A stretch of DNA of 9,477 bases, taken from positions 1 to 9,477 of the forward strand of contig QNFO01000027.1 of the NCBI GenBank assembly GCA_003646355.1, in the 5' to 3' direction. Position 1 is the first letter of the stretch; each line of letters begins with the position of its first letter. Below, piece after piece: positions 1 to 9,256 of this stretch. Made by a program: the position numbers and the translations under genes. This DNA comes from Gammaproteobacteria bacterium. Lineage in GTDB: Bacteria > Pseudomonadota > Gammaproteobacteria > Pseudomonadales > Porticoccaceae. The notes beneath the pieces were generated by a model. It had not been told where the DNA came from. It saw nothing but the letters and a program-made list of their open reading frames with translations, and searched no databases.

Positions 1-788
1 CCCGCCTCACTTAAGGAGGTGGTTGAGGATGCGCTATCAGAGGCACTCGCTGAATCGCTAGCAGAGTGACTGGCGGAGTCATCCAGTGAACGATCGCCCG
101 CTGTACTTTGCGACGCACTCAGGGACCCACTAAATGAACTGCTACCGGAGTCATCCATTGATGATGAGCCTGCGGTACTTTTTGAAGCACTGGCAGAACC
201 ACTGAAGGATGCACTACTAGAATCATCCCAGGAACTCGAACCAGAGGCACTGGCAGAATCATTGTATGAAGAACCTGCAGCCTCATTTTCAGACGCGGAG
301 GAAGCAGAGGAACCCGATGCACTTTCTGATGAGCTGGAGGACGATGCTTTATCCCAGCCCGTCGCCGCGCCTTCATTTACTTCCGCATGAAAAGTCGCGG
401 TAATACCTTCAGACTCTGCTGTCGCAATAGAAGTCGAGTTCTGCTGAATATTGTTATCACCAGCCGCGACGTTAAGGCCAATGTTACCACTTGCACTGTC
501 CAGTGCATTGCCATCGACTAAAGCACTATTTGTTGAATCAGGGCCATTAGTGACCTGGTTGTGATTACTGTCCTGAACTAAGTCAGACACGGCCATAGCT
601 GATGAGTCCACCATGATCAGGCCTAGTGAGAGAATCTCACCATTGATTGATGTGTTTTGCGAAACGTTGATGCTCTTGTTAATAGACACGTTATCGTCAG
701 TTGCTGGCATGCCATCTTCAGCATAAGCAGCACTAACTCCCATTGCCGTAGCAATTGCAATACTAAGTGGTAACTTTGTAAATTTCAT
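1..788 (-). CDS. Exported Ser-rich repeat protein, matrix/adhesin-like (C-terminus beyond the window)
   Basis: Reading from the ATG at 788 gives 262 codons that stay open to the window edge, so the C-terminus is missing. An AAGGAG at 799-804 sits 10 nt before the start. Residues 1-23 form a clear signal peptide (basic start, hydrophobic core, AYA cleavage site before EDG), so the protein is exported. Residues 24-147 are rich in Asn, Ser, Asp and Val and contain one motif (101-117, GNIGLNVAAGDNNIQQN) nearly identical to the repeats of the gene just upstream. From about residue 148 the protein becomes a Ser/Ala/Gly/Asp tail with three 24-residue repeats. There are no cysteines or enzymatic motifs in the visible part. 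The gene lies 54 bp downstream of its relative and probably shares its transcript. A role as an adhesin or amyloid-like matrix component is inference from the motif, signal peptide and low complexity; no substrate or partner is visible. Confidence 0.8.
   Translation of the reverse strand, partial: MKFTKLPLSIAIATAMGVSAAYAEDGMPATDDNVSINKSINVSQNTSINGEILSLGLIMVDSSAMAVSDLVQDSNHNQVTNGPDSTNSALVDGNALDSASGNIGLNVAAGDNNIQQNSTSIATAESEGITATFHAEVNEGAATGWDKASSSSSSESASGSSASSASENEAAGSSYNDSASASGSSSWDDSSSASFSGSASASKSTAGSSSMDDSGSSSFSGSLSASQSTAGDRSLDDSASHSASDSASASDSASSTTSLSEA
36..251 (-). repeat. Three tandem 72-bp (24-aa) Ser/Asp-rich coding repeats
   Basis: Codons 180-203, 204-227 and 228-251 of the Ser-rich protein line up as three 24-residue units. 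The shared pattern is S-x-x-G-x-x-S-x-D-D-S, then a Ser-rich stretch (S-F-S-G-S in the first two) and S-A-S plus a polar residue (K, Q, D). A more degenerate partial copy (AGSSYNDSAS, from residue 171) lies just before. The DNA copies have diverged at many positions while the Asp-Asp-Ser core stays, which suggests old repeats under selection rather than a recent expansion. More units may follow beyond the window edge. Confidence 0.7.
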
Positions 789-842
789 AATATGCACGCT
801 CCTTTATTGTTTGTGCAGTTTTTTACACTGGCAGTGAAACAA

Positions 843-1640
843 TTATTTGCTCACCGACATCGTAAAACTATTGCTCGTCAGGTTTCCCCTACCTGCGGCC
901 TGATTAAGATGAATCACCCCTTGAGCTCCCTGAAAGGCAGCCGTTGATAACACGGTGACAGCACTATCTTGCGTTAAATCACCTGCTGGACTAGACACGC
1001 GAAAGCCCGCAACCTGAGTTTCACCAAGTAACTGTGATTCATTCATTTCGACAATGGCAAAGGGCCTGGCCCCACCTACAGCAATTGCCATTGCGTTGAG
1101 TTGAGTGTTGTCAACGCCAGCTGATTGGTTAATAGAGGCCAGGCCTCGTGTACCATTAAATGCACCTTGGCCAATTTCAGCCGACATTATCTGCCGGCTT
1201 TTATCCGCAAAATTATTTGTTAGTTGTGTACTTTTAATTTTGGCAACAGCGTTATTTTTGTTGTCGGAGATGATGGCAATCGCGCTTGAATTTTGCTGGA
1301 TATTACCTGTGCCGGCAGTCACATTGACGCGGGTCATTCCAGCCACATTTTCAAATACGCGCTCAATACTGCTCTTAGAAATAGTGATTGCTTGCCGCGC
1401 AGTGGGGACTCTTAGTGGATCGGCAAACCCGGTATTGAGTGAAGTGACAAGAAATATAGTAGCTATCTTAAAAGCCGTACGCTTAAAGCGTTGTAGAGTC
1501 GCCAGTTTTGAACTCACGTTCACAGTGGCTATAGAATAGAGTTTCTTAAGGAGGGTCGATTCAGGTGCCGTTGTTACTTGATGCGATACTAAAAAAAGGC
1601 CAGTTCGAAGCAAGCAGAATCCATTCTGGCAATATTTCAT
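843..1640 (-). CDS. Exported protein with three AG-N-Q-N repeats (amyloid/adhesin-like)
   Basis: A 265-residue protein with no enzymatic motif that I recognise. Residues about 52-73 form a signal-peptide-like segment (FKR, a hydrophobic core ending in GFA, then DPLR), so the product is probably secreted or surface-bound. The mature part carries three copies of a repeat, at about 97-124, 159-188 and 234-263, with cores VNVTAGTGNIQQN, INQSAGVDNTQLN and LNQAAGRGNLTSN, each followed by a run such as AIAIAV. The spacers are 34 and 45 residues. Regular Asn/Gln/Gly repeats with variable linkers resemble Fap- and curlin-like functional amyloids, and similar motifs occur in uncharacterised proteobacterial adhesin-like proteins; the family assignment is inference. 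The ATG at 1640 has a good ribosome site but puts about 50 residues ahead of the signal peptide. Internal GTG codons at 1523 and 1517 would give a normal-length signal peptide but lack a ribosome site. It is first in a probable two-gene operon behind a sigma-54 promoter. Confidence 0.78.
   Translation of the reverse strand: MKYCQNGFCLLRTGLFLVSHQVTTAPESTLLKKLYSIATVNVSSKLATLQRFKRTAFKIATIFLVTSLNTGFADPLRVPTARQAITISKSSIERVFENVAGMTRVNVTAGTGNIQQNSSAIAIISDNKNNAVAKIKSTQLTNNFADKSRQIMSAEIGQGAFNGTRGLASINQSAGVDNTQLNAMAIAVGGARPFAIVEMNESQLLGETQVAGFRVSSPAGDLTQDSAVTVLSTAAFQGAQGVIHLNQAAGRGNLTSNSFTMSVSK
852..1352 (-). repeat. Three dispersed ~30-codon repeats in the exported protein
   Basis: Copies lie at 1269-1352, 1077-1166 and 852-941. 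They share the pattern G-x-x-x-x-x-N-x-x-A-G-x-x-N-x-x-x-N followed by a hydrophobic small-residue tail (AIAII, AIAV, TMSV). The last two also share F-x-G-x-x-G before the core. A fourth, related copy is in the neighbouring gene at about 417-500. Conserved Asn/Gln/Gly at fixed spacing is what stacked beta-strand repeats look like, though the sequence alone does not prove amyloid structure. Confidence 0.65.
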
Positions 1641-1647
1641 TGACCCT

Positions 1648-1651
1648 CTCC
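1648..1651 (-). promoter_or_regulatory. Ribosome binding site supporting the ATG at 1640
   Basis: GGAG, within a longer purine run on the minus strand (GGGGGAGAGGG), ends 7 nt before the ATG at 1640. This is the reason to prefer that start over the internal GTG codons at 1523 and 1517, which have no Shine-Dalgarno-like sequence ahead of them. Confidence 0.55.
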
Positions 1652-1761
1652 CCCTTTACACCTCAACTAAAAACATTAAGGCTATCCAATATATTTTGAA
1701 TTTCACCAACAGTGTTTAGCGCTTTAAAATCGTAAATCTCGCTCAACGCTAATATAGACAA

Positions 1762-1777
1762 TGCAAATACAGGGCCA
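1762..1777 (-). promoter_or_regulatory. Sigma-54 (-24/-12) promoter for the exported-protein genes
   Basis: The minus strand reads TGGCCCTGTATTTGCA. It has the invariant GG and GC elements separated by exactly 10 nt, close to the known consensus TGGCAC-N5-TTGCA. The start of transcription would fall near 1751, giving a leader of about 110 nt before the ATG at 1640. The next gene upstream (2114-3484) encodes an activator with an intact GAFTGA loop, the type of protein sigma-54 promoters require, which strongly supports this site. The only consensus deviation in the -24 box is C for A at its fifth base. Confidence 0.75.
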
Positions 1778-1849
1778 AATATGCAACCCCATGATTTACA
1801 TAGATTTTTATACTGACATGGTTTTTTTGATTTTTATTCTTTAAAAGAA

Positions 1850-1869
1850 GTGTCTCAGATTTGAGACAC
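1850..1869. promoter_or_regulatory. 20-bp palindrome, candidate enhancer (activator binding) site
   Basis: GTGTCTCA and TGAGACAC form perfect 8-bp arms around GATT. The centre lies about 108 bp upstream of the start predicted from the -24/-12 promoter, within the usual distance of upstream activator sites for sigma-54 activators, and A/T-tracts lie between it and the promoter. The Fis-type helix-turn-helix of the neighbouring activator would bind such a dyad. On the minus strand the stem is followed by a T-rich run (CTTCTTTT), so a terminator for the regulator gene is a weaker alternative. Confidence 0.5.
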
Positions 1870-1940
1870 AGGGAAATATATAAAGTTTTTTTATTATGCA
1901 TAACAGTATGTTAGGAGATAAATTCCTCCCCGGAATTTCT

Positions 1941-1952
1941 TTACACGTGTAA
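1941..1952. promoter_or_regulatory. 12-bp perfect palindrome TTACACGTGTAA
   Basis: A perfect dyad built from two TTACAC half-sites, centred about 195 bp upstream of the predicted sigma-54 start. It shares its half-site with the 13-bp direct repeats, so it may be a second operator in the same region. No specific regulator can be named. Confidence 0.35.
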
Positions 1953-2113
1953 CAAAAAAGTGACAGTAATATTAGAAGGCGGTGAACATGCGACGCGGAT
2001 TGGTGTAAATTTATTGGACAAATAGGGGAACAATATGGACTAAATAAAACTGAGTTTACACCTCAACATCCACTATCTAGACTGGCAACAGAATGGCTGA
2101 AAAAAATAAAAAC

Positions 2114-3484
2114 TTACGCTAAAGAGTGCAGAGAGTCGATTGAAGTAATGTCATGCTTATCGAGCAAACGATAGAGTGTCATTCGTGAAACACCAAGTTG
2201 CTTGGCAGTTTTTGAAACATTCTGGTTATTAGCAACAAAGGTATCAATTACCGTCACTTTTTCAGCCAGGTTTCTAGCCTGAGCAAGATTATTGACTACG
2301 GCATGCTTATTAGCGTTGGTGACTAATAGGTCAAGGTCACTGGCTAAAATAAGATTGGTCTCACATAAAACGGCCGCTTTTCTTATTCTATTCATCAATT
2401 CTCTGATATTTCCTGGCCATGTATGGGATTTCAAGGCATCTATTGCATCCTTGGAAAAACCTTTTACAACACCTAAACCCTCATTTCTATATTGCTTCAA
2501 GAAATGTCGTGCCAAGATTTCAATATCCCCAACGCGGTCAACTAAAGCAGGAGCGTGTATTTGTAAAACATTTAAGCGATAAAACAAATCTGCACGGAAT
2601 GCCCCTTTTCCAAGGGCCTCTTCTAATCCGATATGACTTGCCGCAATTACCCTCACATCGACATGTCGGGTTTCGGCAAGACCTACCGGATTGATTGTGC
2701 CTTCCTGAAGAAACCTCAAAAATTTAACCTGTTGATTTAAGGGTAAATCTCCAATCTCATCAAGAAACAATGTCCCCTGGTGGGCTAATTCAATTTTGCC
2801 AACTTTATTTCTATCTGCACCGGTAAAGGCGCCTTTTACATGGCCAAAAAGTTCGGATTCAACAAGGTTTTCAGGAATAGCGCCGCAATTAATTACAACA
2901 AAGGGCTCATGGCTACGTGCGGACTGCTGGTGCAAGGTTTGGGCAATTAGCTCTTTGCCGGTTCCACTTTCACCACTTATCAAAACCGGCGCATTGGTGG
3001 CCGCGAACTTGGGAATAAGTTTATATATTTTCTTCATAGAAGGGCTATTGCCAACGATCTTGTCGCAAGTCTCGTTATCGCATTGATAATTACGCCTACG
3101 TAATTCAGCCATTCCATACAAATGCCCAAATACTGCGTCAAGCTTTTCTTTGGCAACCGTTATAGGTTGGCTTATATAATCAACGGCATAGCGACTCAAA
3201 AGCTCTTTAAGAGCTGGAGACTCAAGCTGTTCAGCAGAGACGACGGCTATCCAGTCAATTTCACCGGCCCTACATAACTGTGACTCAAATTCGTCGAGTA
3301 AAGATTGACTGTGAATAATTTCATGTGGAATAAGAAACATACCCAATAAATACTCTGAAAGGTCTTCTTGAATATCGCTCCATTCGCTATAGCACTCTAC
3401 TTTCCATTGAGAAAGCAGAACCAACATCTGGTTAATGACGAATTCATCGACATTCCCCTGAGCCAATAAAGCAACTTTTCTCAT
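2114..3484 (-). CDS. VpsR-like sigma-54-type transcriptional activator (AAA+, Fis HTH)
   Basis: A full-length 456-residue enhancer-binding protein. Residues 1-125 form a receiver-like domain similar to the N-terminus of Vibrio VpsR. Residues about 143-370 are the AAA+ domain: Walker A GESGTGKE (171-178), the sigma-54-contacting GAFTGA (218-223), Walker B GTLFLDEIGD (237-246), RADLFYRLNV (297-306) and the sensor II region WPGNIREL (356-363). The C-terminus holds a Fis-type helix-turn-helix (about 422-444, VSKTAKQLGVSRMTLYRLL). The intact GAFTGA loop means it should remodel sigma-54 polymerase. In VpsR the domain binds cyclic di-GMP; by my recalled alignment the phosphate-accepting Asp position is hydrophobic here (LGMFLIPHE, 47-55), so control by ligand rather than phosphorylation is plausible. 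A weak AGGGA lies before the start. The neighbouring sigma-54 promoter and exported-protein genes are the likely targets. The activator class is certain; VpsR kinship is likely. Confidence 0.93.
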   Translation of the reverse strand: MRKVALLAQGNVDEFVINQMLVLLSQWKVECYSEWSDIQEDLSEYLLGMFLIPHEIIHSQSLLDEFESQLCRAGEIDWIAVVSAEQLESPALKELLSRYAVDYISQPITVAKEKLDAVFGHLYGMAELRRRNYQCDNETCDKIVGNSPSMKKIYKLIPKFAATNAPVLISGESGTGKELIAQTLHQQSARSHEPFVVINCGAIPENLVESELFGHVKGAFTGADRNKVGKIELAHQGTLFLDEIGDLPLNQQVKFLRFLQEGTINPVGLAETRHVDVRVIAASHIGLEEALGKGAFRADLFYRLNVLQIHAPALVDRVGDIEILARHFLKQYRNEGLGVVKGFSKDAIDALKSHTWPGNIRELMNRIRKAAVLCETNLILASDLDLLVTNANKHAVVNNLAQARNLAEKVTVIDTFVANNQNVSKTAKQLGVSRMTLYRLLDKHDITSIDSLHSLA

Positions 3485-3716: not shown

Positions 3717-3740
3717 CATGGGGAAGCTTTATTCCCCATG
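3717..3740 (-). terminator. Hairpin after the Rieske oxygenase gene
   Basis: CATGGGGAA and TTCCCCATG form a perfect 9-bp stem with a 6-nt loop, 33 nt past the stop of the oxygenase gene. The position suits a transcription terminator. On the minus strand only a short GTTATAG follows the stem, so the usual U-tract is weak; it could instead be a stabilising 3' end or a protein-binding dyad. Confidence 0.45.
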
Positions 3741-3773: not shown

Positions 3774-4934
3774 TCACGCACGGCCAATAGCTTTAGCAAC
3801 TTCTCTCTGAAAATGAATCAGCGCCGGCTCGTTACGGCCAAAAGTACTGTGGCTAATGGCGCCACTACTCAAGCCGATTTGAATACCCTCGACACCGGGA
3901 ATATCTTCCTCCAGCACGGTGCGTACAGCCAAATCCATATTGCGCTCCCAGTGGTCTTTCGCCGACTGGGTTTCAGCAGGCTCCGGGATGTAATAGTCCA
4001 TTTGCACAATACATTCGTTGGGCTTGCCGGGAATGGGATAAGAGCGCCATAGCTCGACATGGTCGCGCTGCATTACCAGACCCGCGTTGGGGAAGAGTAA
4101 ATAAACCAGTGCTGAATCGGGCACGATGTCCCAGCTTTCTTTAGGTTGATCGCGGAGTTTTTCAATGGATTTACGAATCACCGCCTCACGCAAGTTTTGC
4201 CCATAGGTGTCGAGTAAGCAGAGGTTGTGATACAGCAAGGGGCCAACCGTGGTCGGGTGCAGTGGCGCAAAGTGATAGGGCTCGAGAAAAGTATCGAGCA
4301 TTAACTTCCAGTTCATTTTGCAGTGCAGTCGACGCTGGGCGTAGGGGTGATAATCTTCAAACTGATAGCTTTGTAAATCTTCAATAAGGCCCTTATCAAG
4401 TCCGCCAAGTTGGATGTCAATATCGAAGTCCTTACCCGCCGTTGGGCAAACCCAGATCATGCCGTATTTTTCTATTACCGGCAGTTTCACCAAGCCATGC
4501 TCGGCTTTATCAACACCAGGGAAACTCACCTGATCGGGCAAGACTTTAAGGTCGCCGGTGAAATCATAAGTCCAGGCATGGTAGGGGCAGGTCAGCCCCG
4601 TTTGAGCACGACCGCAACCGTTCGCCAGTTTGGCCCCGCGGTGTCGACAGGTATTATAGAAAGCGTTGATACCGCCCTCTTTGTCCCTGACTATCAGTAG
4701 TGGTACACCAGCGTCATCATTGGTAATAAAATCGCCGGCCTTGGGCAAATCACAGGAGAAGGCAGCGAGCAGCGGGTAATTCTTAAACAGAATGTCTTCT
4801 TCCAGGGCCAGCCAGTCTTTGCAGGTATAAGAGGCAACCGGGCTTAAATAAATATCGTCGACCCGCGTTGTATCTTTGTTATCGAGCAGCTCAAAGGCGC
4901 GCTCAACCATGTCGATACGTGTCTCTCTTTTCAT
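3774..4934 (-). CDS. Rieske-type ring-hydroxylating oxygenase, alpha subunit
   Basis: A complete 386-residue protein of the Rieske non-heme iron oxygenase family, which uses electrons passed through a [2Fe-2S] cluster to activate O2 at a mononuclear iron. The Rieske ligands are visible as C96-x-H98 (CRHRGA) and C116-x2-H119 (CPYHAW). The catalytic domain shows NWKLMLDTFLEPYH with D214 as the likely electron-bridging acid, H221 and H226 as iron ligands, and D344 (EEDIPGVEG) as the probable third ligand. The length is normal for an alpha subunit. The ATG at 4934 is preceded by GAGAG at 7 nt; the Met at codon 9 is an alternative. The protein is cytoplasmic, with no signal peptide. No beta subunit, ferredoxin or reductase gene is adjacent, so it must borrow an electron donor from elsewhere. 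The substrate cannot be told from sequence: aromatic acids, quaternary amines or other small molecules are all possible in this family. Confidence 0.9.
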   Translation of the reverse strand: MKRETRIDMVERAFELLDNKDTTRVDDIYLSPVASYTCKDWLALEEDILFKNYPLLAAFSCDLPKAGDFITNDDAGVPLLIVRDKEGGINAFYNTCRHRGAKLANGCGRAQTGLTCPYHAWTYDFTGDLKVLPDQVSFPGVDKAEHGLVKLPVIEKYGMIWVCPTAGKDFDIDIQLGGLDKGLIEDLQSYQFEDYHPYAQRRLHCKMNWKLMLDTFLEPYHFAPLHPTTVGPLLYHNLCLLDTYGQNLREAVIRKSIEKLRDQPKESWDIVPDSALVYLLFPNAGLVMQRDHVELWRSYPIPGKPNECIVQMDYYIPEPAETQSAKDHWERNMDLAVRTVLEEDIPGVEGIQIGLSSGAISHSTFGRNEPALIHFQREVAKAIGRA

Positions 4935-5103: not shown

Positions 5104-6690
5104 TTAATGTTCGCGGGTTGAAAAGAATTCGATTTCCGGATAGCGCTCAATGGCCAGGCTCAGATTAACCCGTGTCGGCGCCAGATAAGTCAGGTGCCCG
5201 CCGCCATCAATGGCCAGGTTGTCCGCCGCTTTACGTTTAAAGGCATCCAGGGCTTTTTCGTCATCGCTATCAACCCAGCGCGCGGTGTAAACATTGACCG
5301 GCTCGTAAATGGCCTCGACGCCGTATTCGTCTTTTAGGCGATAGGCGACCACTTCATATTGCAATTGGCCCACGGCACCGACAACAATATTATTGTTCTG
5401 CTTAGGATAGAAAACCTGTGTCGAGCCCTCTTCAGAAAGCTGTCTCAAACCCTTATGTAACTGCTTCATTCTCAAGGGATCTTTCAATCTTATCGAGCGA
5501 AATAATTCGGGTGCAAAGTGAGGGATGCCGGTAAATTTTAAGACCTCCCCTTCAGTGAAGGTATCACCAATTTGTATGGTGCCGTGGTTGTGTAGGCCGA
5601 TAATATCGCCGGCAATGGCCTCTGAAACACTGCTGCGCTCACCGGCTAAAAAACTCACCGCATCGGCAATTTTGACATCTTTGTTAATGCGCACATGGCG
5701 CATCTTCATGCCCTGGCGATACTTGCCTGAACAGATGCGCATAAAGGCGATACGGTCTCGGTGGCGAGGGTCCATATTCGCCTGAATCTTGAAAATAAAG
5801 CCCGTCAAGGGCTCCTCTTCTGGCTCGACGTGACGGTCGATGGTATCTCGACCTATCGGCGCTGGCGCCCATTGCACGAAGTGGTTAAGCATCTCGCGCA
5901 CGCCAAAGTTGCCCAAGGCCGTGCCGAAAAACACCGGGGTGATGGTGCCAGCAAGATAGGCTTCCAGGTCGAAGATATTAGTTGCGCCACGAACCAGCTC
6001 GATTTCATCACGAATATTGTCGTACTCAAAACCGAGTAGTTCCCGAGCGGCATCAGAGTCAAGCCCGTCAATCTTTACATCGTCGGGTATATGGCTGCCC
6101 TGACCCTGTTGGTAGACGTGAATCGTGTCCTGATAGAGGTCGTAAACCCCTTTAAAAGCCTTGCCCATGCCCAGGGGCCAATTGATGGGTGCGGCCTTAA
6201 TTTTCAGTACCGTTTCGACCTCGTCTAGCACGTCGATGGGCTCGCGGACTTCACGATCCATTTTGTTGATAAAGGTCAAAATGGGCGTATCGCGCAGACG
6301 GCAGACATCCATCAATTTGATGGTGCGATCCTCCACGCCCTTGGCGCCATCGATCATCATCAGCACCGAATCTACCGCCGTTAAGGTGCGATAGGTATCT
6401 TCAGAGAAGTCGCCGTGGCCCGGGGTGTCGAGCAAGTTCACCGTGCAGCCCTTGTAGGGAAACTGCATCACCGAAGAGGTCACCGAGATGCCCCTCTCCT
6501 TCTCCATCGCCATCCAGTCGGAGGTGGCGTGGCGATCACTCTTTCTACCCTTCACCGTACCGGCAACCTGAATAGCATTACCAAACAGCAGCATCTTTTC
6601 CGTCATCGTGGTCTTACCCGCATCCGGGTGAGAAATGATGGCGAAGGTTCTGCGCTTATTCACTTCATTGATAAATTTGGCATCGGCCAT
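5104..6690 (-). CDS. prfC: Peptide chain release factor 3 (RF3)
   Basis: A translational GTPase of 528 residues, essentially the length of the E. coli protein (529). RF3 uses GTP to recycle RF1 and RF2 off the ribosome after they release the finished peptide. Motifs in order: G1 HPDAGKTT (21-28), switch I with RGISVTSS (66-73), G3 DTPGH (88-92), G4 NKMD (142-145) and a G5-like GTALGNFG (256-263). The rest is the RF3-specific domains 2 and 3, ending in [15 protein letters not shown]. The intact HPDAGKTT and NKMD and the length separate it from EF-G and from the ribosome-protection GTPases. There is no strong Shine-Dalgarno directly before the ATG. It is divergent from dusC, and the next gene on its strand starts 169 bp beyond its stop, so it is probably transcribed on its own. 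Confidence 0.97.
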
Positions 6691-6796: not shown

Positions 6797-6968
6797 CAGC
6801 TCGCGTATAAGCACGAACAGCGCCTAAACACTTGTCGTCAACAAGGCCAATCGGCCCCGCATCTTCTGGATGCGCCTATGCTGCAATCAAGCACGTAAAA
6901 ACAGCTTCGTTGCTAGAGCCAGCCTAAGGTAAAATCGCACCTCTTTTTTGACTCGACGCCAGCGCCAC

Positions 6969-7946
6969 ATGCAAATATATCTCGCGCCAATGGAGGGCGT
7001 CATCGACCATCATATGCGTTACCTGCTCGATCAACTGGGCGGCATAGACCTGTGCGTCACCGAATTTATTCGCGTCAGTAAAACGGTGTTGCCGAATCAT
7101 ATTTTTCTCAGCACCTGCCCCGAGCTAACGCCACTCGCTGAGCGGATAGCCACAAAGGGTTCGGAATACGGCTCCACTCAAACCACACGACTTCAACTGC
7201 TTGGTAGTGACCCTGAACTCATCGCGCTGAATGCGCAAAAAGCGGCCGAGTTGGGTGCCACTGCTATTGATTTAAACTTTGGCTGCCCCTCCAAAACGGT
7301 TAATCGCAGTTACGGTGGTGCCCGCCTGCTCAATGAAACCGCCCTTCTTCACGAGATCGTTAAAACCACGCGGGAGCATGTGCCACCGATAACGCTGGTC
7401 ACCGCTAAAATTCGCCTCGGTTATGAAGACCGCAGCAGCTATCTGCGCAATGCCATTGCTATTGCCGAGGCTGGCGCTGATGAGCTGATTGTTCACGCTC
7501 GCTCCAAGGCCGATGGTTATCAGCCCCCAGCTTACTGGGGCTATATTAAAGAAATACAGCGCCAGCTCGATATACCGGTGATTGCCAACGGTGAGATTTG
7601 GACGCTTGAAGACTATATCGCCTGCCGTGAACAGTCGGGCTGCGACAGCGTCATGCTCGGACGCGGGCTGCTGGCTCGACCCGATTTGGGCCTAGCTATC
7701 AAGGCCTATCAGCGGGGTGAGGACTATCAATATATGACCTGGCCGCAGATTGCAGCATTAGCCTTAAAATTATTGCGCCTGACACAAGCCTATTACCCAC
7801 CCAAACACATGGGTAACCGTATTAAACAATGGTTGTTTTATTTAATGCGCAGCTACCCACAGGCCGGCACCTTGTTCGAAAACATCAAACGTTCCAGGGA
7901 TTTCGATTTTATCGAGCAGGCACTGACAAAAGAAACTGAGGCCTAG
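6969..7946 (+). CDS. dusC: tRNA-dihydrouridine(16) synthase
   Basis: A flavin (FMN) enzyme that reduces uridine in the tRNA D-loop to dihydrouridine using NADPH. From the ATG at 6969 it has 325 residues and starts MQIYLAPMEGV, which matches the E. coli DusC start MRVLLAPMEGV; an upstream TTG at 6948 would add seven residues with no homologue counterpart. Visible hallmarks are the FMN-barrel start APMEGV, TEFIRVS, LQLLG, the catalytic cysteine in LNFGCPSKTVN (C106), HARSKADGY, IPVIANGEIW and the phosphate-binding SVMLGRGLLARP. The C-terminal helical domain includes RIKQWLFYL, close to RIKQWLSYL in E. coli DusC, which favours DusC over DusA or DusB. No strong ribosome site precedes the start. 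It diverges from prfC. A loose GCCCC/GGGGC pairing at about 7949-7979 after the stop is too poor to call a terminator. Confidence 0.93.
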   Translation: MQIYLAPMEGVIDHHMRYLLDQLGGIDLCVTEFIRVSKTVLPNHIFLSTCPELTPLAERIATKGSEYGSTQTTRLQLLGSDPELIALNAQKAAELGATAIDLNFGCPSKTVNRSYGGARLLNETALLHEIVKTTREHVPPITLVTAKIRLGYEDRSSYLRNAIAIAEAGADELIVHARSKADGYQPPAYWGYIKEIQRQLDIPVIANGEIWTLEDYIACREQSGCDSVMLGRGLLARPDLGLAIKAYQRGEDYQYMTWPQIAALALKLLRLTQAYYPPKHMGNRIKQWLFYLMRSYPQAGTLFENIKRSRDFDFIEQALTKETEA

Positions 7947-8194: not shown

Positions 8195-9256
8195 ATGCGG
8201 CCATTTTCAATATCCACAGCCCTAACCCCGACACCTGATAACGATGATTTAATTGCCAATTTCCGCCTCAATTTTGAGATGTATTTTGGCTTTGCAACTC
8301 TTCTAGTATTATCCCCCTACGTCATAAATCACCTTTTTCAAAACCGGTTTATGATGGCCGCCTTCACCTTTACCATCGTTTTTCTATCATCTATCAATTC
8401 GATGTCTATCTTTCGCCATAGGGTGGAGATGATCCCATTCCCTTATTTCTTTGCACTTATTTTAACGGTCCTGGCAGGTGGACTACTATTACAGGGGCCA
8501 AGTATCATCTATTGGTACTACCCTTTTGCTTTCATCATATTGTCCATCGCCAAACACCGGCAGGCGAGAATAATGCTCGCACTAAGTATTCTTGTCTTCG
8601 TACCGGCTGTGTTTTTTACCACGGATACGGGCATCGCCGCTCGCTTTGGGGCGACCTATATTATGGTCTGTATATTTGGCGATATTGTGGTTCGTTTACT
8701 CGACAAGGCTCAAGCCCAGCAGACCTTGCTAACGTTAACCGACCCATTGACAGGAGCCTTCAACCGCCGTTCCTTTTTGAGTACTCTTGGTGACGCCGCC
8801 GAAAGCTGCCGCCGCGGAATAGGCACCGCTAGCCTGGTTGCAATCGACATCGATCACTTTAAACAGATTAACGATACCCTGGGCCACAAAGCCGGTGACG
8901 AAGCCCTCAAGAACATCGTGGCAAGCCTAACACTGCGCAAACGTAAACTGGATAAGGTTTATAGAACCGGTGGTGAAGAGTTTGTTGTACTGGCCCATAA
9001 TATCGAGCCTGGGGAAGCCATTGCCTTTGCCGATAGCCTGCGTATTGCGGTCGAGCAAGCGGACATTATCACGGGACAAGTCATCACCATCAGTATCGGC
9101 GTTGCCGACTACTCAACGGAGCAGAGTATTGACGACTGGATACGCCAGGCTGATGCTAATCTTTATGAGGCGAAACGACGGGGGCGCAACCGGGTTTGGC
9201 CACCCTACTTTAGTCGGGAGTCAGTATTGTCAGCGCAACAAAATCAATTTAATTAG
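8195..9256 (+). CDS. Membrane diguanylate cyclase (GGEEF)
   Basis: A 353-residue inner-membrane enzyme that makes the second messenger cyclic di-GMP from two GTP. Residues about 29-168 contain six hydrophobic segments (near 29-48, 52-68, 82-99, 104-118, 126-142 and 150-168), an integral-membrane sensor unit that I cannot assign to a named MASE type. The catalytic domain follows: DPLTGAFNRR (183-192), IDIDHFKQIND (217-227) with metal-binding Asp, and the active loop GGEEF (259-263). RKLD at 250-253 followed by R257 is an intact RxxD inhibitory site, so product inhibition is expected. There is no EAL or HD-GYP domain, so it should be a synthase only. AGGA lies 9 nt before the ATG. It stands alone, with 248 bp on one side and 127 bp on the other. 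The signal sensed by the membrane part is unknown. Confidence 0.93.
   Translation: MRPFSISTALTPTPDNDDLIANFRLNFEMYFGFATLLVLSPYVINHLFQNRFMMAAFTFTIVFLSSINSMSIFRHRVEMIPFPYFFALILTVLAGGLLLQGPSIIYWYYPFAFIILSIAKHRQARIMLALSILVFVPAVFFTTDTGIAARFGATYIMVCIFGDIVVRLLDKAQAQQTLLTLTDPLTGAFNRRSFLSTLGDAAESCRRGIGTASLVAIDIDHFKQINDTLGHKAGDEALKNIVASLTLRKRKLDKVYRTGGEEFVVLAHNIEPGEAIAFADSLRIAVEQADIITGQVITISIGVADYSTEQSIDDWIRQADANLYEAKRRGRNRVWPPYFSRESVLSAQQNQFN

Follow-up and report, generated by a model that had tools for sequence, protein, structure and literature searches.

Here we describe the first 3,484 bases of a 9,477-base stretch of DNA (hereafter the window) from an uncultured gammaproteobacterium, contig QNFO01000027.1, where a candidate fap functional-amyloid locus lies next to a gene for a sigma-54-dependent activator. 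The three genes read in the same direction on the minus strand: the activator gene (2114-3484, 456 amino acids), a fapB-like gene (843-1640, 265 amino acids) and a fapC-like gene (3-788), which is cut by the left edge of the window. The activator gene and fapB are separated by 473 bases that carry both a putative sigma-54 promoter and a palindrome; the gap between fapB and fapC measures 54 bases. The original prediction, made from the letters alone, had singled out, in a row on one strand, a VpsR-like activator with a GAFTGA motif, a well-spaced -24/-12 promoter, a distal palindrome and two exported repeat proteins. All of these elements are indeed present, and each of the two surface proteins has a hydrophobic segment in its N-terminal part.

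The product of the fapB-like gene matched the NCBIfam FapB profile (E 3.3e-18, 66 bits) and contains three Fap repeats that could be aligned with those of Pseudomonas FapB. It thus appears to be an exported protein with three Fap repeats, as FapB is in the Fap system, though its score stays below the curated cut-off. The search listed 49 FapB-like homologues, the window protein included, and a profile built from 17 FapB-like proteins matched the solved FapC in three stretches (E 1.3e-16). An AlphaFold2 (AF2) model of the protein showed three blocks of stacked beta-strands, with a predicted local distance difference test (pLDDT) score of 69; its structural match to FapC was weak, and SufD rows tied with FapC in the VIA-align list. 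We also considered that the two surface proteins might form a new class of amyloid, which was rejected in view of the matches to the Fap profiles and to the solved FapC. The original prediction of amyloid- or adhesin-like proteins holds for the amyloid type, not for an unknown class: the proteins are relatives of FapB and FapC.

The FapB-like protein has an N-terminal extension of about 50 residues (window 1475-1640, minus strand). Its hydrophobic export segment starts around residue 56, versus residues 4-5 in the Pseudomonas proteins P0159 and P0161. Among the relatives, the segment starts at residues 51-61 in seven proteins (P0122-P0126, P0128 and P0129), at 28-32 in P0127, P0130 and P0131 and at 12 in P0132, so that the extension is not of fixed length. 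In the window protein and in P0122-P0131, the export segment comes after some 28-60 partly conserved residues, for example MKDYRSAFCTVR, which are missing from Pseudomonas FapB; possibly, they form an extended signal region. A strong ribosome-binding site, GGGGGAGAGG, serves the fapB start codon; none was visible for the GTG codons inside the gene, at residues 40 and 42.

The fapC open reading frame spans 3-797 and is open at the left edge; the better start is the ATG at 788, behind AGGAG. The truncated product matched the NCBIfam FapC profile (E 4.2e-10, 39.8 bits) and comprises a signal peptide, an N-region and the first Fap repeat, ASGNIGLNVAAGDNNIQQNS, followed by a linker rich in Ser and Ala; of the final 118 residues before the edge, 55 are Ser. 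We found no tandem repeats across the window, thus the linker is not a clean DNA repeat. A FapC-like fragment, P0170 (KUG60_03180), is 93% identical to the window FapC over 55% of the query, and its gene is numbered next to the fapB-like KUG60_03175.

Upstream of fapB, the sequence TGGCCCTGTATTTGCA (1777-1762, minus strand) is a predicted sigma-54 promoter of the GG-N10-GC type that agrees with 10 of 12 consensus positions. It is the top scorer of the 63 GG-N10-GC sites in the window (35 on the minus strand and 28 on the plus strand, where the maximum is 9), and when the 473-base intergenic region was shuffled 2000 times and scored on one strand, 24 of the shuffles did as well. Transcription of fapB would start near position 1751. 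The palindrome GTGTCTCA-N4-TGAGACAC (1850-1869, no strand), which reads GTGTCTCAAATCTGAGACAC in the direction of the genes (1869-1850) and holds the motif TCTC-N6-GAGA, is a candidate enhancer (upstream activating sequence, UAS) centred 84 bases upstream of the -24 GG. As an inverted repeat it is not significant, an 8-base repeat with a spacer of at most 6 arising in 178 of 2000 intergenic shuffles, and we rejected it as stand-alone evidence; it is supported by its position and by its counterpart in Aeromonas, described below. TCTC-N6-GAGA itself occurs once in the window, upstream of fapB, and at least once in 9 of 200 window shuffles.

The activator consists of a VpsR/receiver-like N-terminal domain (residues ~1-134), an AAA+ domain (143-379) with GAFTGA at residues 218-223, and a Fis-type helix-turn-helix. 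The Sigma54_activat domain was recognized with an E-value of 1.9e-69 and the VpsR domain (PF20161) with 27.6 bits, above the Pfam gathering cut-off of 23.7; moreover, the solved VpsR structure 7v2b aligns with the protein along 364 residues. An identity as the PEP-CTERM response regulator PrsR (TIGR02915) was rejected, as the score (377.3 bits) stays below the curated cut-off (502.6). GAFTGA, an AAA+ domain, a Fis-type helix-turn-helix and a gene beside fap are the marks of an activator of the BrfA type, named after the fap activator of Pseudomonas fluorescens PF07, and the window activator has them all. By position and architecture, we class it as BrfA-like.

The original prediction had called for a comparison of gene order with relatives, and this comparison showed that the linkage of activator and fapB recurs. 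The FapB and FapC profiles also match proteins of relatives, and five activator/FapB-like pairs have longest contigs of identical size: P0004/P0123 (9660), P0005/P0125 (8771), P0006/P0131 (162299), P0007/P0128 (313257) and P0075/P0133 (15670). This pairing was made by a script that compared 20 of the 120 activator rows with 17 of the 49 FapB-like rows. In one linked pair, FapB is only 33-36% identical. The closest named homologues (P0007, P0011 and P0122) are proteins from metagenome-assembled genomes labelled Gammaproteobacteria bacterium, which points to an uncultured gammaproteobacterium as the host of the window. When the activator was compared with a plasmid collection, ranking by coverage times identity, Aeromonas caviae NZ_AP026896.1 came first of 2487 records (41% over 95%). 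Pseudomonas FapB P0161 had a single match in the whole collection, and it is located 1.7 kb from this activator match.

We then turned to a 25-kb Aeromonas caviae KAM479 locus from this record (L003). One strand carries fapF, fapE, fapD, fapC and fapB, and the other a gene for an activator with a VpsR domain (PF20161, 48.3 bits), which points away from fapB and is separated from it by a DDE transposase gene (L003 10801-11943). FapD is the C39 peptidase and FapF the outer-membrane pore of Fap systems, gene types that the original prediction had suggested might lie beyond the left edge of the window. All the Fap proteins score below the NCBIfam cut-offs (FapC 173/195, FapD 249/330, FapF 370/700, FapE 47/250, FapB 78/190). 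Between the window and Aeromonas, identity is 41% over 439 columns for the activators, 31% over 163 for FapB and 34% over 115 for the N-terminal part of FapC. A run of nine C on the minus strand (L003 10312-10320) lies near the fapB start, where the reading frame looks broken, which looks like phase variation or a sequencing error. The 4.94-Mb record itself is filed as plasmid pKAM479_3, and its size suggests a chromosome.

Upstream of the Aeromonas fapB, TGGCATGGTCGTTGCT (10419-10404 of L003) agrees with 11 of 12 sigma-54 consensus positions; it ranks first among the 616 GG-N10-GC sites found on either strand of the 25 kb, and shuffling the 433-base upstream region 3000 times gave as high a score in 4 cases. 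Scored at the 12 central arm positions, the palindrome of the window has one counterpart with 2 mismatches (L003 10473-10488, 63 bases upstream of the -24 GG) and another with 3 mismatches (10559-10574, 149 bases upstream). A match with at most 2 mismatches was found in 30 of 3000 shuffles and in 17 of 959 overlapping windows elsewhere in L003, and matches with at most 3 mismatches were no commoner than chance over the whole sequences (9 versus 8.3 expected in L003, 3 versus 2.5 in the window). The string TATTGAGAC, picked post hoc, occurs twice in the 25 kb, both times upstream of fapB, for an expectation of 0.02. TCTC-N6-GAGA occurs once in L003, upstream of fapB, and at least once in 37 of 100 L003 shuffles; this motif was picked after both sites were known, thus the 12-position test is the fair one. 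Taken as a whole, the comparison is suggestive of TCTC-N6-GAGA as an enhancer common to the window and the Aeromonas fap genes, a new candidate.

These results bear on whether the activator could be a chance neighbour that controls something else, fapB and fapC being under another regulator. Sigma-54 activators are common, and the best NCBIfam model of this one is the PrsR model mentioned above, at 377 bits. However, the linkage to fapB is seen in the five contig pairs and again in Aeromonas, there in a different orientation, and sigma-54-type sites stand upstream of fap in both the window and Aeromonas. A chance association is therefore quite unlikely.

All together, the results suggest that bases 1-3484 very probably hold the first part of an operon for Fap functional amyloid that has no fapA before fapB, together with the gene for a dedicated activator. 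Positions 1641-2113 contain no minus-strand open reading frame of at least 60 amino acids, so fapA is missing before fapB, which leaves room for a fapA elsewhere. The gene identities, the promoter, the palindrome and the linkage in relatives are read from sequence, and from them we infer the binding, activation, export, fibre formation and control by cyclic di-GMP (c-di-GMP) that follow. The BrfA-like enhancer-binding protein (2114-3484) would occupy the palindrome (1850-1869), and its AAA+ domain would be released by a signal that, by analogy with BrfA, is probably c-di-GMP. With its GAFTGA loop, the protein would then open the RNA polymerase that carries sigma-54 at the -24/-12 promoter (1777-1762). 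This would lead to transcription of fapB and fapC, and probably also of fapD-E-F beyond the left edge, and exported FapB and FapC would assemble into amyloid fibres of the biofilm matrix.

The least sure part of this explanation is that the signal would probably be c-di-GMP and not phosphorylation. In the receiver-like domain of the window activator, Pro takes the place of Asp after beta-3, which speaks against phosphorylation; moreover, BrfA and VpsR are reported to be c-di-GMP responsive. Still, a response to phosphorylation or to another ligand is a substantial possibility, if not the one we favour: FleQ's c-di-GMP residues are not conserved, a FleQ-type site being rejected on that ground, and in the aligned activator family the position after beta-3 is most often Asp (22 of 70), so that some relatives may be phosphorylated.

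The missing FleQ-type residues also weigh against the proposed operon with its dedicated activator, and so do the higher bit scores of Caballeronia activators compared with Aeromonas in the plasmid collection (337 versus 310), which slightly lowered our confidence, and the distance of both surface proteins from the NCBIfam cut-offs (66 bits versus the equivalog cut-off of 190 for FapB, 39.8 versus 195 for FapC). Low scores, a long FapB N-terminal extension, a Ser-rich FapC linker and a window whose edge falls inside fapC, leaving out the export genes, would also fit adhesins that merely share the Fap repeat, with no Fap system, no FapD, E or F and no amyloid. The fapB-fapC gene order, the three FapB repeats and the match to the solved FapC make this improbable, and the Aeromonas relative carries fapB, C, D, E and F. 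In addition, a missing fapA is the commonest reported deviation of fap operons (6 of 16 genera) and variable FapC linkers are usual among Fap systems (PMC3792158).

Among records of the plasmid collection with FapF-like (13) or FapD-like (40) matches, which include Vibrio, Photobacterium, Cupriavidus, Croceicoccus, Polymorphobacter and Acidithiobacillus, only Aeromonas also matches Pseudomonas FapB P0161. Two non-Aeromonas records that we inspected have no annotated sigma-54 activator, their gene table being incomplete. In a Vibrio sp. SCSIO 43009 plasmid (L091), C39-peptidase-like and FapF-like stretches lie less than 4 kb apart with no FapB match, and matches a few kb apart were also seen in Photobacterium, Cupriavidus and Croceicoccus records; such pairs are perhaps Fap-like or Fil-like export pairs. 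The activator match in Pseudomonas veronii has phenol genes nearby and that in Pseudoalteromonas receptor, porin and transport genes, with no fap gene annotated near either. In a scan of genome contigs, a single locus matched the activator, and it encodes an AAA+ relative from Bacteroidetes; the FapB profile had no match in that genome, but 14 controls were equally empty, thus this result shows no absence. Viral contigs yielded 113 sigma-54 AAA+ relatives, of which 80 were kept, and no FapB relative was found there.

The remaining genes of the window encode a Rieske-type ring-hydroxylating oxygenase (3774-4934, minus strand), PrfC (prfC, 5104-6690, minus), the tRNA-dihydrouridine synthase Dus (dus, 6948-7946, plus) and a GGDEF diguanylate cyclase (8195-9256, plus), bringing the number of convincing genes to seven. 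Between the activator gene and the oxygenase gene (289 bases), just downstream of the latter, lies a perfect 9-base inverted repeat, CATGGGGAA/TTCCCCATG (3717-3740), which may be a terminator and so insulate the activator gene. The diguanylate cyclase gene is 4.7 kb from the candidate c-di-GMP-responsive activator, a nearness that is probably incidental.

In a 2018 review, the fap operon is said to encode no regulatory proteins, and its regulation is left as a future question (PMC6173800). BrfA answered this question for P. fluorescens. It is possible, if somewhat short of probable, that VpsR-domain sigma-54 activators are an ancestral dedicated Fap switch across Gammaproteobacteria well beyond Pseudomonas, recognising a conserved TCTC-N6-GAGA 60-150 bases upstream of the -24/-12 promoter, and that the window represents a branch that lacks fapA ahead of fapB and in which FapB gained a long N-terminal extension. 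Should a VpsR-domain activator and its enhancer prove to be shared by Aeromonas and the uncultured Gammaproteobacteria, it could become possible to predict from sequence the production of an amyloid matrix in many environmental bacteria, and one reporter design could test these predictions. It would also set sigma-54-using VpsR-domain proteins apart from the VpsR of Vibrio cholerae, which acts with sigma-70 in vitro.

The BrfA-RpoN-Fap circuit of P. fluorescens PF07, whose primary paper is Guo 2024 (Microbiol Res 287:127864), offers the first comparison. BrfA is described as an RpoN-dependent activator, encoded beside fapA-F, that is required for fap transcription from a -24/-12 promoter and senses c-di-GMP (PMC9207406, PMC13101488). 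Like the window, PF07 has a Fis-type activator gene beside fap (a 1,326-base open reading frame, 441 amino acids versus 456 here) and a -24/-12 promoter before the first fap gene. In contrast, brfA is downstream of fapA-F and reversed, whereas the window activator gene is upstream and on the same strand as fap; PF07 has fapA, which is not found before fapB in the window. The likeness to BrfA is judged by position and architecture. With BrfA beside fapA-F already on record, the view of the original prediction that the combination was not recognisable as a described system was overstated. Outside Pseudomonas, no such activator beside fap appeared in the titles and abstract openings listed by our searches of the open literature, a body of text from which subscription journals are mostly absent.

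The fapABCDEF operon of Pseudomonas and other Proteobacteria (PMC3792158) shares with the window a three-repeat FapB followed by a FapC with an export signal and a repeat; the window differs by the ~50-residue FapB extension, shorter in some relatives, and by its very Ser-rich FapC linker. The Aeromonas caviae KAM479 locus likewise has a VpsR-domain activator, fapB and fapC, a sigma-54-type site and a similar palindrome, but there activator and fap genes point away from each other on the two sides of a transposase gene, and the fapB frame is apparently broken. VpsR of V. cholerae combines, like the window activator, a VpsR domain with an AAA+ domain; however, it controls polysaccharide genes and acts with sigma-70 in vitro, although the same review also calls it sigma-54-dependent (PMC9303241), while the window has GAFTGA, a sigma-54-type promoter and amyloid genes. 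Of the VpsR-like control logic first proposed, the VpsR domain and the sigma-54 promoter are thus retained, and the logic itself would be BrfA-like. The window system is a probable new member of the BrfA-fap kind that differs in its gene order and has a longer N-terminus in FapB. What it would add to the known systems is a distant, uncultured gammaproteobacterial lineage, the shared direction of activator and fap genes, the extension of FapB and a candidate enhancer in common with Aeromonas.

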